Below are positions 94 to 39,413 of a stretch of 47,410 nt of DNA, piece by piece (the stretch's first letter is position 1; each line of letters opens with the position of its first letter). A program made the translations under genes and the position numbers. The notes under the pieces are model-generated. The model did not search any database. It was not told the DNA's origin and saw nothing but the letters and a program-made list of their open reading frames with translations. This DNA is from Parcubacteria group bacterium GW2011_GWA2_42_14 (GTDB taxonomy: Bacteria; Patescibacteriota; Minisyncoccia; Sungbacterales; GWA2-42-14): positions 1-47,410 of the forward strand of contig LCCV01000015.1 of NCBI GenBank assembly GCA_000998135.1, given 5' to 3'.

Positions 94-1387
94 AATTTAC
101 TCCATAGATACATCCAAAATCGCTTCTTTGCGCTTTCCCACATTTTGGTTTGAGCCAACTCCGCAAGGTTTGTTTATGCTTCAAGTCGCCTTTGGCCAAT
201 CAAAATACTATTCCGACAATTTGTCGGAAAACGTAAAGCGCGGGATTCGCCAAAAACTCAGGCGTGGAGAGTGACCCAGCCTTGCGCCGTTCGGATATGT
301 AAACAATCCGAAAACCCGAACCATTGAGCCAGACCAGACCAAAGCGAGGGTTATTAAAAAAGCGTTTGAGGAATACGCGCAAGGCCGCCATACGCTTTTA
401 TCACTGGGCGATCGCCTGAGTTTTTGGGGCGTGGTGAGCGGGACCGGAAAACCGCTCTGTAAAGCAACGCTCCAAAGAATGCTGACGAACAAAGTGCATC
501 TCGGCTTAATCGTTCACAACGGCGAAACATACGAGGGCGGTTTTCCGTCAATTGTTTCCCGAGCGACTTTTGAGAAAGTGCAGGAAGTTTTGAAAAACAG
601 AGCCAAGCCGCGCCACTCAAAGAAACGCCACAACTTTCCATTTACCGGGCTGCTCACTTGCGGCGAATGTGGCGCGGCCATTACCGCCCAATACGCGCAC
701 GGACACGGCGGAACATATAAATACTATCGTTGCACCAAACGGCTTGGCTCGTGTTCGCAAAGTTATCTGCGTGAAGATTTACTTACCGAACAATTAAAAA
801 CAGAAATCTCAAAAGTCGCTCTGTGCGAAGACTGGAAAGAAAAGATGTTGGTAAAAGTGGAAATGTGGGAAAAGGAAAATATCCAGTCTTCGCAATCTTT
901 CGCCCAAAATCTGGAAAAAGAAATCAAGGAAACCGAAACAAAGCTCGATAGGTTGGTGAACGCCTTTTTGGACGGGAGTATTGAGAAGGAAACCTATCTC
1001 GCCAAAAAGGACGAGCTTATCACTACCAAAACAGACCTCCAACGAAGGAAATCTGATTTTGGGCGAAAGGGAAACAATTGGATCGAACCTTTGCGTGAAT
1101 GGATTTTAGCCGCTCACCACGCTGAAAAACTGGCTTCGTCAAACGAATTTGATGAAATCAAATCGTTTGTGGAAAAAATTGGAACGAACCGCCGCTTGCT
1201 TTCCAAAAAAGTCCTCGTCGGGCTTCGCCCGCCGTTTGATTTAATCACGAAACAACGGGCTTTTTGCGAAGCGAGACCCGCCGAAGGCGTGGCGAGCGAG
1301 CAATCATCTCGTCCTGAAAAATCGTTAAGTTTTGATTGGTCGACGATTCTTAACTTTGCTCTAACTTATTTTACAGAAAACTCTTGA
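94..1387 (+). pseudogene. Large serine recombinase, 5'-truncated and interrupted (copy 1)
   Basis: Translation aligns closely with the intact recombinase at 3098-4624 from its motif IYSID onward (recombinase domain, zinc ribbon with CGECG and CTKRLGSC, coiled coil, terminal KIGTN segment). The catalytic N-terminal resolvase domain is absent: bases 1-90 are not homologous to the intact copy and carry a short palindrome (CCGATGC-AA-GCATCGG). A single in-frame TGA at 272-274 replaces the conserved Trp of GEWLT; the frame is otherwise open to the TGA at 1385-1387. Other genes here end in TGA, so this is a nonsense mutation and not recoding. The stop codon lies inside the 99-bp repeat that begins at 1377. 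The protein is almost certainly inactive. The C-terminal tail differs completely from copy 2. Confidence 0.85.
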
Positions 1388-1475
1388 AAAGCAAAAGAGC
1401 GTAGCCCCCGCGCCGTTTTCGGCGCGGGGGCTACCATAAATTTGCTCGGGAGCGATGGAATGGGAGGCGTGGAGG
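1377..1475 (+). repeat. 99-bp inverted repeat, left arm (IR-a)
   Basis: Reverse complement of 2909-3007, identical over 99 bases by eye. It contains the last codons and stop of recombinase copy 1, then a perfect 15-bp-stem hairpin with a TTTT loop (arms GTAGCCCCCGCGCCG and its complement, 1401-1434), and ends seven codons into the following P-loop gene, whose ATG at 1455 lies inside it. The two arms enclose exactly the two-gene cargo. Flanking bases on both sides of each arm differ, so the boundaries are sharp. Confidence 0.95.
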
Positions 1476-2003
1476 GTCCCCCTTACTTTTACTAATGGAA
1501 CGGATGTTTATAAGGAGCTTGGCGAGACGTATATTAAGCACAAGGTTGGTTTTTTTATTTTAGCTCCCTCTGGCGCAGGTAAAACCCATTTTATAAAAAA
1601 TCAAAAAGAATCACATTGGATTGATGGGGACGAGATTTGGATGGCGGCAAAAGCTCATCCAGATGGCCAGTGGTGGCTAGAAGATATATCAGTAATTGAT
1701 GAAATTGACCAACGAAGTGATGTTATTACAGTGGAAGCAAAGAAATTGGGTTTTTGGATTATGGGCGCATCTAACTACTGGCTAAAACCCGATGCCGTCG
1801 TTATACCAGATTGGGAAAGCCACAAAAATTTTATTTCTAAACGAGAAAATAATGCTTATGATGGCGGTGCAACCAGTGAAGATTTAGAAAGAGTAGAAAA
1901 AAGCAGAAACTGGATGTCTAGGTGGAAAAAGGAGGGTGTTCAAATTTTTCAGTCCATTGAAGACGCGGTAAATTATTTAGTTGAAAAGCACAATAAATTA
2001 TAA
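1455..2003 (+). CDS. P-loop NTPase, small kinase-like protein
   Basis: 182 aa. A Walker A motif APSGAGKT lies at about residues 37-44, followed by WIDGDEIW and a later VIDEID stretch. The overall size and the DGDEIW signature resemble small nucleotide or shikimate-kinase-type P-loop proteins, but I cannot name a substrate. No alternative ATG, GTG or TTG occurs in frame before the Walker motif, so translation must start at the ATG inside the 99-bp repeat; a GGGAG stands only 2 nt upstream of it, which is unusually tight. The next gene (histidine phosphatase) starts 4 bp after the stop, so the pair is probably co-translated. It is cargo between the two 99-bp inverted arms. Confidence 0.7.
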   Translation: MEWEAWRVPLTFTNGTDVYKELGETYIKHKVGFFILAPSGAGKTHFIKNQKESHWIDGDEIWMAAKAHPDGQWWLEDISVIDEIDQRSDVITVEAKKLGFWIMGASNYWLKPDAVVIPDWESHKNFISKRENNAYDGGATSEDLERVEKSRNWMSRWKKEGVQIFQSIEDAVNYLVEKHNKL

Positions 2004-2007
2004 AAAT

Positions 2008-2862
2008 ATGGGGAAAGAAAATTTTGAACCAACTCTTCCTAGAAAGATTGAAAAAAGTGGTATTGAGCCGAATCTACCAGATATTGGGGGAACTGAAATA
2101 ATTTTACAAAGACACGGGAAATATGAACGCTCTGCCGACAGTCCTAATGTGGGCAGCTTGACCGAAGAAGGTGCTGAAGAAGTTTATACTTCGGGTAAAG
2201 AATTTTTTCAAAAATTATTCGAGTCAGTAGCTGAATCTGAAAGAAAAAATATAGATATTTTAGTATTGGCAAGCGATACACAATATAAAGATGGAGGCCG
2301 TAGGTCTATGGAAACTGCTGAACAAGTAATTAGGGGGTTAAAAGAAGAACTAAAGAGGTTAAATTTGGATGATTCTCAATTATTAAATACTTCTAGTAAT
2401 GTTTCCGGTGATGGAGGCTCCAGGCCAACTCCTAAACTTAGAGAACCTCAAATGTTTGATAATTCTCCAGAATTCGTTGAATTTCTTAAAGAAAAATATG
2501 GCGACTTAAATTTAGATTTTTGGATTGCTTTTGAGGAAGACAAGGAAAAAGAAACAAGAGAAAAAATGGGAGCAGAAGGTCCAGATGAAATTACGGATAG
2601 AATGAAGCTGATGGTGGACGTTCTTACTCGATACAGCAGATTTTATCACAAAAAACATCCTGACCGACGCTTAATTATCTGGGCAGCCACGCATTATGAC
2701 ACCATTAGCCCGTATATTAAAAGGGGAATTTTTGAGGTTGGAAAAGATATTCCTTTGGGAGTTGACTATGGTGCAGGTATATTAATCAATTTAGACCAGG
2801 ATGGTAAAGGTACGGTTAAAATAGCGGGCAAAGAATATAAAGTCCCAAAAGAAAAATCATAA
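2008..2862 (+). CDS. Histidine phosphatase superfamily protein
   Basis: 284 aa from ATG 2008; an upstream in-frame TTG at 1981 overlaps the previous gene and is less likely. The phosphohistidine motif is QRHGKYERS near residue 36, and the second catalytic histidine is in WAATHYDT near residue 231. Both are hallmarks of the phosphoglycerate-mutase-like histidine phosphatase superfamily. A central insert rich in Ser, Gly and charged residues separates the halves. No signal peptide or membrane segment is seen, so it is probably cytosolic. It is paired with the P-loop kinase-like gene just upstream, giving a possible kinase/phosphatase couple. Substrate unknown; phosphoprotein, nucleotide and sugar phosphate are all possible. 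Confidence 0.8.
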   Translation: MGKENFEPTLPRKIEKSGIEPNLPDIGGTEIILQRHGKYERSADSPNVGSLTEEGAEEVYTSGKEFFQKLFESVAESERKNIDILVLASDTQYKDGGRRSMETAEQVIRGLKEELKRLNLDDSQLLNTSSNVSGDGGSRPTPKLREPQMFDNSPEFVEFLKEKYGDLNLDFWIAFEEDKEKETREKMGAEGPDEITDRMKLMVDVLTRYSRFYHKKHPDRRLIIWAATHYDTISPYIKRGIFEVGKDIPLGVDYGAGILINLDQDGKGTVKIAGKEYKVPKEKS

Positions 2863-2891
2863 TTATTTAATTGATCAGACCTCAACTGCGA

Positions 2892-2936
2892 GGGAGCGAT
2901 GGAATTTTCCTCCACGCCTCCCATTCCATCGCTCCC
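2892..2936. repeat. 14-bp-arm palindrome at the cargo/IR-a boundary
   Basis: GGGAGCGATGGAAT at 2892-2905 is the exact reverse complement of 2923-2936. The right arm lies inside IR-a and the left arm just outside it. This looks like a partial second copy of the repeat end, and suggests repeated rearrangement at this boundary. Confidence 0.8.
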
Positions 2937-3007
2937 GAGCAAATTTATGGTAGCCCCCGCGCCGAAAACGGCGCGGGGGCTACGCTCTTTTGCTTTTCAA
3001 GAGTTTT
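2909..3007 (-). repeat. 99-bp inverted repeat, right arm (IR-a')
   Basis: Perfect inverted copy of 1377-1475. Read on the minus strand it carries a recombinase stop codon, the long GC hairpin, and an ATG that opens only a 15-codon frame here instead of the P-loop gene. It directly abuts the 73-bp repeat at 3008. Confidence 0.95.
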
Positions 3008-3080
3008 GGGCGCGTCCCGCGAGGCGGGACCCAAGAAAATCAGATGGTGGAATGAAGGAAAAAGAAAGAGAGCGGTCTGA
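2997..3080 (-). pseudogene. Orphan 3' end of a serine recombinase gene, inverted
   Basis: On the minus strand, 3080 to 2997 encodes the last 27 residues of a recombinase. It starts SDRSLSFSFIPPSDF exactly like intact copy 2 and then ends RAQNS-stop, where copy 1 ends TENS-stop. It is therefore a chimera: its upstream 73 bp match copy 2 (4475-4547) and its downstream part matches copy 1 and its flank. The crossover point is at 3007/3008. This is what an inversion or recombination between recombinase copies would leave behind. Confidence 0.8.
3008..3080 (+). repeat. 73-bp inverted repeat, left arm (IR-b)
   Basis: Reverse complement of 4475-4547, identical over 73 bases by eye. It sits immediately after IR-a' and 17 bp before the start codon of the intact recombinase. 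It includes a small GC palindrome (GTCCCGC-GAG-GCGGGAC, 3014-3030). Confidence 0.95.
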
Positions 3081-3097: not shown

Positions 3098-4624
3098 ATG
3101 AAATATTTTCTCTACGCCAGAAAATCAACAGAAGACGAGGAGCGACAAGTGATGAGTATTGAAGCTCAACTTGCCGAACTCCAAGAATACGCCAAGCGCG
3201 AAAATATTTTGATTACCGAAACTTTTATTGAATCGAAAAGCGCAAAGAAACCAGGCAGAGAAATATTTAACGAAATGATGGCGAAAGTCGCCTTATCAAA
3301 AGAACCTATCGGCCTTCTTGCGTGGCATCCTGATCGCTTGGCTCGCAATTCTATTGATGGCGGTCAAATTATTTACAGTATAGACATTAGCAAAATTGTT
3401 TCTTTGCGCTTCCCTACTTTTTGGTTTGAACCAACACCCCAAGGATTATTTATGTTGCAAGTGGCGTTCGGGCAATCTAAATATTATTCAGATAATCTTT
3501 CCGAAAACGTCAAAAGAGGTATTCGCCAAAAACTTCGCCGGGGAGAATGGCTAACTAAAGCTCCTTTCGGTTATTTGAATAATCCCAAGACAAGAACCAT
3601 AGAACCGCATCCCACGCTCTCAAAAATCCTCGTCAAAGCATTTGAAGCATACGCGACTGGAAAATATACTTTAGAAAGTTTGGGAAAGTTTTTGGCGGAA
3701 TATGGCATTGAATCAAAGAACCGAACGCCAGTTTCAAAAGCAAATATCAAAAGAATTCTTACTAACCAAGCATATCTAGGTCTCATTGCCCATAAAGGAG
3801 AATATTTTGAGGGCAAATTCCAACCAATTCTAGATCATGCGACATTTGAAGCCGTGCAGGAAGTTCTGAAAAGAAAAGCCAAACCTCGAAAAACAAAACA
3901 AGGCCATGATTTCCCATTCACTGGTCTGATGACTTGTGGACAATGTAATTCTCCCATCACTGCCCAATGGGCAAAGGGAAAATCGGGAGGAATATATCGC
4001 TATTATCGTTGCACTAAAAAGCGTGGAATTTGTTCTCAAAAATATATTCAAGAAAAGGATCTTGCCAATCAAATTAAGGCACGGCTTCAATCTGTTGCGC
4101 TTCCCGACACTCATACGGATTGGATGCTAAAGAAAGTTGAAGAATGGGAGAAAGAAGAAACAAATAAATCCATGTCGTCCGTCCAAAATATCAAATACAA
4201 AATCAATGAAACGCAAGAGAAACTTGATAAACTTGTTTCCGCCTACATAGACGGCGATATTCCAAAAGAAAACTATCTAACCAAAAAAGAAGAATTGCTC
4301 AAAACCAAAGTTTCTCTTGCTGAAAAGAAAGAGAATGGACGGACGACCAAAAACCCGCTCGAACCCCTCCGTCAATGGATTTTAGACACGAAAAAAGCCA
4401 GTTTCCTAGCTTTTTCCGATGACTACCCAGAAATGAAGCAGATTATCCAAAAGATTGGAACGAACCCCAAACTTTCAGACCGCTCTCTTTCTTTTTCCTT
4501 CATTCCACCATCTGATTTTCTTGGGTCCCGCCTCGCGGGACGCGCCCCCACCATTCCATTCGCGCCTTTGGCGATAAAATTCTCAACCCCGAAGCGCACG
4601 CCTGCTCCGCGTCACTTCTATTAA
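3098..4624 (+). CDS. Large serine recombinase (site-specific integrase), intact
   Basis: 508 aa, the usual size of large serine recombinases. The N-terminal resolvase domain has the nucleophile in YARKSTED (Ser10) and the arginine motif WHPDRLARN (about 77-84). The recombinase domain covers roughly 140-265. A zinc ribbon follows (CGQC and CTKKRGIC, about 285-320), then a coiled coil (about 350-430). The domain order is standard for phage- and transposon-type integrases that use attP/attB sites. The start is ATG 3098. The last 50 residues are low-complexity and basic. Part of that tail is encoded by IR-b' (4475-4547), so inversion between IR-b and IR-b' would swap the tail for one ending RAQNS. 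Probably active. Confidence 0.92.
   Translation: MKYFLYARKSTEDEERQVMSIEAQLAELQEYAKRENILITETFIESKSAKKPGREIFNEMMAKVALSKEPIGLLAWHPDRLARNSIDGGQIIYSIDISKIVSLRFPTFWFEPTPQGLFMLQVAFGQSKYYSDNLSENVKRGIRQKLRRGEWLTKAPFGYLNNPKTRTIEPHPTLSKILVKAFEAYATGKYTLESLGKFLAEYGIESKNRTPVSKANIKRILTNQAYLGLIAHKGEYFEGKFQPILDHATFEAVQEVLKRKAKPRKTKQGHDFPFTGLMTCGQCNSPITAQWAKGKSGGIYRYYRCTKKRGICSQKYIQEKDLANQIKARLQSVALPDTHTDWMLKKVEEWEKEETNKSMSSVQNIKYKINETQEKLDKLVSAYIDGDIPKENYLTKKEELLKTKVSLAEKKENGRTTKNPLEPLRQWILDTKKASFLAFSDDYPEMKQIIQKIGTNPKLSDRSLSFSFIPPSDFLGSRLAGRAPTIPFAPLAIKFSTPKRTPAPRHFY
4475..4547 (-). repeat. 73-bp inverted repeat, right arm (IR-b')
   Basis: Lies within the 3' coding end of the intact recombinase and is the inverted copy of 3008-3080. 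Together the arms enclose nearly the whole recombinase gene. Confidence 0.95.
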
Positions 4625-14806: not shown

Positions 14807-14977
14807 AATTTCTCCTAAAATAAAATTATAAAAAATTTCCTTTCCCAAAATTAAAACGCGGTTCGAGCCGATATTTTTACAGGTTCTTTGGCAGTTTTTA
14901 TCGGCGCGGCGAAGCCGCGATTTCGTAATTTCGCGGGGAGATTTCCTCGCCGCTTGCGGCGGCGAAAACCGTCCGAA

Positions 14978-15610
14978 CTATTTCAAGAATAGACCACATT
15001 TTAAAAAACCGCAAGGAATTGGAAGCCGCCTCGCTTCGCTCCGGCGGAACGCTCGGGCGCGGCGGAATTCCCCCCACACCCCCCTTCCGCCGCGCTCAAT
15101 AAGGTCGTCGTTTCCAACAACGTTTTTCATTGGGATGAATTTCAGCTTATTGTCCTCGCAAAACTTCTTAATCGCATTATCAAGTCGCTCAATGTTTTCA
15201 TTGTAATAAGATTTATCGGGCTTCCACGGACAAGGGGTAGTTTTTGATTCATCTACAGCGGCCAAACCAACGAAAACAACTTTGTCGGTAAATTTCTTGG
15301 CGATAGAAAGAAGTTTTGCGAGATTTTGCTGAAATTCATCAAGCGAAACGCGTAAGCCGTTTGTAGAGTGGATAAATTGAGCGTCATTGATTCCAATAGC
15401 AAAAATTATCAAGTTCGGCTCGCGCGATTTCGCTTCAATTTCAATCCTGTTGAGCAAGGCGGCTGTGGTGTCGCCGGAAATACCAAGATTGTAAACATCT
15501 GTGTCATTATCTTTTTCCTCAAAATAATTTCGCAAGCGAGTAGCCCAGCCGCCTTGCTCCGGATCGTATGCACCCCAAGTTATACTATCGCCAAAAATTA
15601 GAATGTTCAT
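14978..15610 (-). pseudogene. SGNH/GDSL hydrolase, C-terminus lost
   Basis: Start MNILIFGDSITWG at 15610; its ATG overlaps the upstream kinase stop (ATGA). The Ser nucleophile is in FGDSITWG, block II is in LGISGDTT and block III in IGINDAQ. The family requires a final block V with Asp and His (DGLHPN-like). Here homology breaks off right after GNDDLIE, where block V should come, and runs into a GC-rich palindromic region encoding an Arg-rich tail. The catalytic His is therefore missing and the enzyme is probably dead. The tail includes the 28-bp inverted repeat at 14997. Confidence 0.75.
14997..15024 (+). repeat. 28-bp inverted repeat, left arm
   Basis: Exact reverse complement of 16782-16809. 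The pair encloses the XRE/kinase/GDSL operon, and weak similarity continues into the tRNA-Ala 3' end on the other side. Confidence 0.9.
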
Positions 15611-18784: not shown

Positions 18785-19084
18785 TTATCTAAACATCGGC
18801 GGAGCATCCTTAATGCCGAATTGCAAAATAAAATCAAATTTATTTTTTCTCTCATCCAGCATATTGATAATTTCAGTCAGGTCTTTCCTTTTTAAGGTTA
18901 TGGTATAATCACTTATCACGGCGGTATTTACAACTTTATAACCATACACATAAAAAATCCAAATATCAAGCAAGGGCCCTGTAGACACGAGGCCGACAAC
19001 CGCCCAAAGCGAAATATAAACAACAGATTTGTAGGAGAAAATCTTTTTTAAATCCTCAATTTTTTTTATGTTCGGCAGAACCAT
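18785..19084 (-). CDS. Small membrane protein of the pilus operon
   Basis: 99 aa with one clear hydrophobic segment (VVYISLWAVVGLVSTGPLL, about residues 21-39) and a second weaker one, then a charged C-terminus. It is the last gene of the minus-strand pilus cluster, after PilO. No homology recognised; position suggests an accessory inner-membrane component. Confidence 0.6.
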   Translation of the reverse strand: MVLPNIKKIEDLKKIFSYKSVVYISLWAVVGLVSTGPLLDIWIFYVYGYKVVNTAVISDYTITLKRKDLTEIINMLDERKNKFDFILQFGIKDAPPMFR

Positions 19085-19100
19085 TAACGTTTGCGGATTT

Positions 19101-19165
19101 GACCACTAATTTCATGAACGATGTTCGCGCGATTAGTGGAAAAATTTGCGCATATTCGCGATTAT
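19101..19165 (-). repeat. Gene-end word repeat, copy 1
   Basis: Shares its last ~36 bp exactly with 19726-19790 (GCGATTAGTGG...TTCGCGATTA). On the minus strand its first bases TAATCGCG provide the TAA stop of pilO. Confidence 0.85.
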
Positions 19166-19710
19166 CGGCTAAGGGCATTAACTTTCATGCCGGCTTTATA
19201 CGGAGAATCTTTCGTTCCTCCTCCAGTAATAATAATATCCTGAATTTCCATTTCATAAGGAGCCATCTCCAAAAGATTTAAAAAGATAAATATTCCCTTG
19301 CCGGAACCGTCAACGTTAATATTGACCCCGGCCCCATATTCAAGAATTCTTGGCGAAGAAGGGCCCTTGGATTCCGTTAGCCTTACGTCAATGAAGGCCT
19401 TGCTTGAAGAAGCGGCAGAATAAAGGAATTCAAAAAAATCCAGAGGGTTGGAATGGTCAACTGCCAAATTTTTAACCCGTCCAAGGTCGGTCGAAGATTC
19501 CTCTATCAGCTCTTCAACTCTTTTTATCTGATGGCGTTTGGTTTCAAGCAGGGCCAATTCATTTTTCATTTCAAGTATTTGATCAGCTCCTTTCTGCAAA
19601 AGAGGTAAAACGTAGAATAAAATAAACAACGCCATCAAACAGGTTGCTAAAATTAAGACCATAATAATTATAATAAACTTTTTTTGGGGACTGAGATTCT
19701 CTGGAATCAC
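19162..19710 (-). CDS. pilO: PilO-like type IV pilus assembly protein
   Basis: 182 aa: short cytosolic N-terminus, one transmembrane helix (about 12-35), coiled coil (about 38-70), then a ferredoxin-like periplasmic domain. Topology and position right after pilM-pilN identify it. It works with PilN to form the inner-membrane alignment complex. The start is a GTG; no strong ribosome site is seen because a word repeat occupies the upstream sequence. Confidence 0.75.
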   Translation of the reverse strand: MIPENLSPQKKFIIIIMVLILATCLMALFILFYVLPLLQKGADQILEMKNELALLETKRHQIKRVEELIEESSTDLGRVKNLAVDHSNPLDFFEFLYSAASSSKAFIDVRLTESKGPSSPRILEYGAGVNINVDGSGKGIFIFLNLLEMAPYEMEIQDIIITGGGTKDSPYKAGMKVNALSR

Positions 19711-19725
19711 TAATGTTCACGAACA

Positions 19726-19790
19726 TGACCACGAATTTCACGAATAGTATTCATGCGATTAGTGGAAAAATTTGCGCATATTCGCGATTA
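19726..19790 (-). repeat. Gene-end word repeat, copy 2
   Basis: Same element as 19101-19165. Here TAATCGCG supplies the TAA stop of pilN. A related variant lies at about 40128-40197. Confidence 0.85.
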
Positions 19791-38958: not shown

Positions 38959-39015
38959 ATTCAGGAATTTGATCTGTCTTAATTGGTCGGACCGCTGGGA
39001 ATCAATTTGCTTCTC

Positions 39016-39165
39016 GCAAATTCCCGGGAATGCCCCCAGCATTCCCTTCGATTCCCAGCAACCCTCTTTGCATATCTTTAGTTGTATCGGGCAAATTCCC
39101 GGGAATGCCCCCAGCATTCCCTTCGATTCCCAGCAACCCTCTTTGCATATCTTTAGTTGTATCGG
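39016..39165. repeat. Two tandem 75-bp repeats at the tRNA-Pro locus
   Basis: Identical units at 39016-39090 and 39091-39165. Each contains a hairpin with an AATGC..GCATT core, an inverted T-arm-like word (TTCGATTCCCAG), and the sequence lying 3' of the broken tRNA, and each ends at the acceptor 3' strand of that tRNA. So the repeat unit is a duplicated tRNA 3' flank. Confidence 0.9.
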
Positions 39166-39215: not shown

Positions 39216-39236
39216 GAAAATGCCCCCGGCATTTTC
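39216..39236. repeat. AATGCC-GGCATT hairpin
   Basis: Nine-bp arms around CCC with core ATGCCCCCGGCAT. Relatives: 39026-39046, 39101-39121 and 45490-45510, all beside tRNA genes. Outer bases differ among copies but stay complementary within each. Confidence 0.85.
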
Positions 39237-39334
39237 GTTGAGAACTTATTCGGGGAGCCGGGAATCGAACCCGGTCTACCTGCTCCCAAAGCAGGCGTAC
39301 TACCGGTATACTACTCCCCGAATAAGTTCTCAAC
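39237..39334. repeat. 14-bp perfect inverted repeat flanking tRNA-Pro
   Basis: GTTGAGAACTTATT (39237-39250) is the reverse complement of 39321-39334. It is continuous with the acceptor stem, giving an uninterrupted 21-bp helix. Confidence 0.92.
39250..39320 (-). tRNA. tRNA-Pro (TGG), intact, nested in a broken tRNA-Pro
   Basis: 71 nt. Acceptor CGGGGAG/CTCCCCG, D-stem GTAT/GTAC, anticodon stem CCTGC/GCAGG with loop TTTGGGA, T-arm CCGGG/CCCGG, A73, no CCA. Confidence 0.93.
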
Positions 39335-39413
39335 CCCAAAGCAGGCGTACTGCCGGTATACTACGGCCCGTTTCATATGAACTGCTTTCACAAAAGCACA
39401 ATGTTTCACGCTT

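Follow-up and report, generated by a model that had tools for sequence, protein, structure and literature searches.

A probable decayed copy of a tRNA-targeting serine recombinase element with mirrored arms in a Parcubacteria genome

When analyzing contig LCCV01000015.1 of Parcubacteria group bacterium GW2011_GWA2_42_14 (positions 1 to 47,410, the whole stretch of 47,410 nucleotides, referred to here as the window), we noticed two serine recombinase genes of one family separated by a kinase-like gene and a histidine phosphatase gene. Long inverted repeats surround both the gene pair and the second recombinase gene. In the list of features, Tail stands for the 3′ end of the recombinase gene and Q for a conserved motif that lies left of the crossover core in relatives.

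89-1339, + strand: rec1, remnant of the first recombinase, of the same family as rec2 (57% identity), with one TGA inside
1340-1342, no strand: TCG, putative crossover core of the attL of the rec2 element, short and placed by alignment with the internal site of relative L067
1343-1376, - strand: Q motif, a conserved attP-like half-site, forming the outer left arm beside the core; in this copy at attL only
1377-1475, + strand: left cargo arm A, which continues the Q arm; it holds a hairpin (1401-1434) and, at 1460-1475, 16 nt copied from the cargo 3′ flank
1455-2003, + strand: P-loop (APSGAGKTH) kinase-like protein of 182 aa, no Pfam family
2008-2862, + strand: histidine phosphatase superfamily protein of 284 aa, RHG motif intact
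2863-2924, + strand: native cargo 3′ flank, also present in Nealsonbacteria (L060), overlapping the right arm by 16 nt
2909-3007, - strand: right cargo arm A′, a perfect inverted copy of A
3007-3008, no strand: junction without the internal attP-like site (Q-core-outer Tail); L067 has 106 bp more here
3008-3080, - strand: arm B, the 3′ coding end of rec2 repeated in inverse orientation upstream of the gene
3098-4624, + strand: rec2, large serine recombinase of 508 aa with Resolvase, Recombinase, and Zn_ribbon_recom domains
4475-4547, + strand: arm B′, the rec2 3′ coding end

Arms A and A′ are 99 nt each, 100% complementary, and separated by a spacer of 1,433 nt. This repeat is found nowhere else in the genome, and a perfect pair of that length is far beyond chance. 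The first-pass annotation had described the pair correctly, and everything it had read within the arm is present, namely, the TGA stop codon of the first recombinase frame (1385-1387), the hairpin with its 15-bp stem, and the ATG of the kinase open reading frame (1455). It had missed a second perfect inverted pair, B and B′ (73 nt), which flanks rec2 and abuts the first pair at 3007/3008. Its proposal that the arms are made from the end of a recombinase gene is right for B and B′ but not for A and A′, which consist of an attachment-site arm joined to 16 nt from the 3′ flank of the cargo itself (2909-2924 aligns with L060). The first recombinase frame merely runs into arm A.

The rec2 protein has the domain order of the large serine integrases, a Resolvase catalytic domain followed by a Recombinase domain and a zinc ribbon in about 500 aa, and it matches the structures of the YokA and A118 integrases. 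Its scores against the CcrA and CcrB models were 77 and 75, below the cut-offs of 700 and 900. The rec1 remnant lacks the N-terminal ~90 residues at the contig start and has an in-frame TGA at 272-274; its 3′ end (..AAGTTTTGATTGG) resembles a Tail end. No relatives of the kinase, the phosphatase, or the recombinase were found in viral contigs.

We investigated the distribution of rec2 and found relatives in 24 of 55 near genomes (E ≤ 1e-60) and in 73 of 380 sampled species of the phylum (E ≤ 1e-100). The final non-redundant survey comprised 58 relatives with 38% identity or more. At its 3′ end, the recombinase gene nearly always runs up to a tRNA or tmRNA gene in antisense orientation, and the recombinase is always oriented toward the tRNA; an antisense tRNA lies downstream in 52 of the 58 and just upstream in none. 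Tail arms, in which the recombinase 3′ end is mirrored upstream of the gene, were likewise seen in 52 of the 58 (44 to 159 nt, medians of 121 nt and 99.2% identity), and detectable Tail arms were absent from six. The upstream inverted Tail copy reaches 3 to 6 nt into the tRNA 3′ end.

If the recombinase region kept a complete attP-like site, Q-core-rcTail (rc, reverse complement), a mirrored Q would be expected at the left end of the element. This was predicted beforehand and then found in seven loci by matrix search; the aligned Q arms were 84 to 100% identical over about 100 to 270 nt. Thirty relatives have at least 2.5 kb of sequence to the left; Q arms, the second mirrored pair, surround varied cargo in 25 of these and are absent from five. 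For all Q arms found, the medians were 148 nt and 99.3% identity. The same genomes also encode three distant serine recombinases, and these lack both Tail and Q arms. The general layout is host|core-rcQ-cargo-Q-core-rcTail-recombinase-Tail-core-tRNA, with the tRNA antisense and with a core of 4 to 6 nt of the tRNA 3′ end present at both element ends in the relatives. The closest relatives, L066 (92%) and L067 (89%), retain the intact internal site. A single attP in the circle, which is split upon integration, is usual for large serine integrase elements, though not strictly defining, and integrated members of this family have an intact attP-like site inside; we therefore call the family a variant of such elements.

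For the element of genome G233, the joined flanks are contiguous across tRNA-Ser in the congener G549, which represents the empty site. A joined-flank search for the element of G624 did not yield a clean empty site, as its left flank lacks conservation. Relatives thus have hybrid attL/attR sites with a shared core as well as an empty attB, while the window copy has a likely attL and no recognized attR. In L067, a tRNA 5′-half-like stretch alone follows the Tail (L067:2960-3080), and ARAGORN calls no tRNA, which suggests that this element lies within a tRNA gene. The stretch CGACAAAAAGATACTTTCGGAT occurs both just after tRNA-Pro in Nealsonbacteria (L064:3660-3710) and in the outer Tail of L067 (L067:1365-1386), so Tail sequence and tRNA trailers may have been exchanged.

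The extent of arm identity differs within and between elements. Between elements, conservation is confined to about -40 to +10 around the core, while within elements the arms are near identical for 44 to 312 nt. The arms of the window and of G481 are identical internally at 73/73 and 72/73 positions, respectively, and at 67 to 68 of 73 positions between the two elements. Since the identity extends far past the conserved site, and the arms of one element resemble each other more than those of different elements, we conclude that the arms are kept alike by copying, and the suggestion of ongoing homogenization in the first-pass annotation was borne out. Comparison of sequences among the relatives establishes how the elements are built, that they target tRNA genes, that one empty site exists, that the cargo varies, and that arm identity reaches well past the conserved site.

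In the window, the reverse complement of 1336-1395 aligns with the internal site of L067, which places an attL-like end near 1340. The Q motif at 1343-1376 is the second best Q-matrix match of the window, with a moderate score of 17.4 against 16.9 for the next matches elsewhere. Judged by sequence, this attL-like end abuts the rec1 Tail end, and the element would have inserted behind an older one. On the right, similarity to the tails of L066 and L067 continues to 4573 and then stops, and neither a recognizable core nor a tRNA was found to the right of that position. The window copy looks decayed and is probably immobile. Two other readings of 3007/3008 were considered and dropped. A circle junction formed by the 172-nt composite of A and B would have a zero-nucleotide overlap, unfit for a serine recombinase core, and relatives put the true core about 35 nt left of 1377 and show the internal junction to be a deletion; the same core position and deletion dispose of a reading as two tandem elements, each with terminal inverted repeats.

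Several further repeats were noted in the window. An orphan attP-like site (Q-core-rcTail) of the L045 type lies at 14858-15060 with no recombinase beside it, and its Q motif (14970-15003) is exact and single-copy in this genome. Around tRNA-Pro (39249-39321; window 39226-39380), there are 36-nt direct repeats (39285/39335) and a 32-nt inverted pair, and 75-nt tandem copies at 39007-39156 adjoin these partial duplications. Two 87-nt direct repeats (19078-19164 and 19704-19790), 82% identical and 626 bp apart, overlap gene ends.

No convincing family was found for the kinase in Pfam, NCBIfam, PHROGs, or PADLOC, and its structure model (pLDDT of 45.5) was too poor for use. The phosphatase has both the RHG motif and the fold of its superfamily. 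The closest homolog of the cargo is in Nealsonbacteria (L060/L064), beside tRNA-Pro, with 89% DNA identity over 1509-2924. Homology of the kinase to its relatives starts exactly at 1476, and the N-terminus is replaced by arm sequence (MEWEAWR); the Nealsonbacteria N-terminus (MERKYIKKSFDLLKLG before VPL) is taken from L064 alone because the kinase there is split over two contigs. At the right end, the cargo homology covers 16 nt of arm A′. Those 16 nt are mirrored at 1460-1475 within the kinase start, which indicates that the right arm served as the template for the left and that this copying truncated the gene. A 14-nt fold-back at the right edge of the cargo (2892-2905/2923-2936, GGGAGCGATGGAAT / ATTCCATCGCTCCC) is absent from L060, which suggests template switching during the fusion of cargo and arm.

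Taking the window and the relatives together, we consider it very probable that the locus is a decayed copy of a family of integrative elements which targets tRNA and tmRNA genes, is widespread in Patescibacteria, and keeps an inverted internal attP-like site, with the kinase/phosphatase pair as a passenger. The recombinase, whose activity we assume from homology, would integrate a small circular DNA at tRNA or tmRNA 3′ ends. Both element ends would then be hybrid sites of the attL/attR type, and a complete attP-like site (Q-core-Tail) would stay inside, inverted, just upstream of the recombinase. With such an internal site and hybrid ends, the cargo comes to lie between inverted Q arms and the recombinase between inverted Tail arms. 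The excised circle is predicted to carry attP twice, in inverted orientation, and we infer that gene conversion between these two copies keeps the arms identical. In the window, an arm copy apparently extended into the sequence that flanks the cargo on its 3′ side and was placed at the left end, which removed the N-terminus of the kinase. More speculatively, the internal site might supply a recombinase promoter or autoregulation after integration. For the A118 integrase, recombination of attP with attP occurs at <5% of the normal rate (PMC3556126), which makes an enzyme-driven exchange conceivable. It is a rather doubtful extension that the two inverted, homogenized attP sites of the circle, which separate recombinase and cargo, recombine through the element's enzyme or through the host in a way that serves the element, for example, in recombination-driven amplification of copy number like that of the yeast 2-micron plasmid or in cassette exchange. 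If true, this would define a distinct class of integrative element.

The first-pass annotation had proposed a defense, addiction, or modification/reversal module carried by the recombinase; such a module might have been selected together with it. The arrangement of a kinase gene and a phosphatase gene fits this proposal, and some related elements do carry restriction-modification cargo (GmrSD_N/HNH with EcoRI_methylase, N6_N4_Mtase). Yet the pair was found without the recombinase in four other genomes, those of Nealsonbacteria (L060/L064), Moraniibacteriota (L061), Patescibacteria (L010/L062), and an archaeal metagenome-assembled genome (L063), and its association with this recombinase was seen once. 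Half of what the annotation had named as evidence against itself, the occurrence of the pair without recombinases in relatives, was thus observed, and a role in defense or addiction tied to the recombinase is not supported. The phosphatases of L061 and L063 have lost the catalytic RHG motif, PADLOC gave no match of the pair to a known defense family, and the cargo of related elements is unrelated and varied: besides the restriction-modification genes and the DNA methylase, it includes a histidine phosphatase, HAD hydrolases, a sodium:solute symporter, a glycosyltransferase, and others. We regard the module as distinctly improbable. What held up was the more general claim that the two genes are cargo of a mobile element encoding a recombinase; the pair appears to be an ordinary passenger from a Patescibacteria chromosome. 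A third gene, gamma-glutamylcyclotransferase-like by eye, adjoins the relatives of the pair in two places (L061:7968-9983 and L063:6533-9150).

The repeats themselves might have other origins. Perfect identity, a length near common k-mer sizes, a contig start inside a recombinase gene, and contigs of relatives that often begin within the same arms would all fit a fold-back chimera or a misresolved graph. Yet dozens of assemblies made independently share the two-pair layout; its ends are anchored to the 3′ termini of tRNA genes, and the arm sequences vary from one element to the next. The layout is also present in the single-contig genomes G059, G184, G155, and G215, which makes an assembly artifact unlikely as a general cause; we consider an assembly or amplification artifact very unlikely for the repeats, and possible at the single junction 3007/3008. 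The sharp arm ends and symmetrical boundaries of A and A′ would suit a separate transposon with 99-bp terminal inverted repeats, inserted between the two recombinases. Against this, the sequence left of 1377 continues as the Q arm known from relatives, and in those relatives the cargo arms extend as far as the tRNA-derived core and lie next to the recombinase arms; there is no transposase, and no target duplication was found at 1376/1377 and 3007/3008, so that a transposon of this type is highly improbable. Phase variation by a switch that inverts the cargo would likewise place long perfect inverted repeats beside a serine recombinase, and the attP-by-attP reaction of A118 offers a precedent. 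In the open reading frame lists, however, the cargo points away from the recombinase in 13 cases, toward it in two, and both ways in two, a bias that speaks against frequent flipping. As the recombinase always faces the tRNA and no promoter logic was seen, we find such a switch clearly unlikely.

The literature search covered little of the subscription papers and preprints, and within its scope this layout was described nowhere; the mirrored-arm family is apparently undescribed so far. With relatives in 73 of 380 species, it may be a main route of gene movement in very small genomes with few known mobile elements, and the genes moved would include those for restriction-modification. Mirrored arms are probably the reason why many such assemblies break inside recombinase genes. 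A large serine recombinase family that accepts many tRNA 3′ ends would also be of interest to those searching for integrases.

Among known systems, the large serine integrases (the phiC31, Bxb1, A118, and SPbeta YokA type) share with this family the order of Resolvase, Recombinase, and zinc ribbon, the hybrid attL/attR ends, and a short core. Of the two, only this family keeps a second, inverted attP-like site inside the integrated element, with homogenized arms of 44 to 312 nt, and it targets tRNA and tmRNA 3′ ends generally. SCC elements (CcrA/CcrB) also combine a large serine recombinase with small cassettes of variable cargo, insertion at the 3′ end of a gene, and tandem accretion. The SCC target is rlmH, whereas this family has tRNA targets, a single recombinase, and a duplicated inverted internal site; with ccr scores below the curated cut-offs and targets other than rlmH, it falls outside SCC. 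The yeast 2-micron plasmid is a circle with two inverted FLP sites, and the predicted excised circle resembles it in having two inverted recombination sites that separate the recombinase from the other genes. Its recombinase is unrelated, and this family is integrative rather than autonomous; amplification here would be speculation by analogy. Tyrosine-integrase islands share the tRNA 3′ end as the target and the restoration of the tRNA gene, but this family differs from them in its serine recombinase, its core of 4 to 6 nt, and its mirrored arms.
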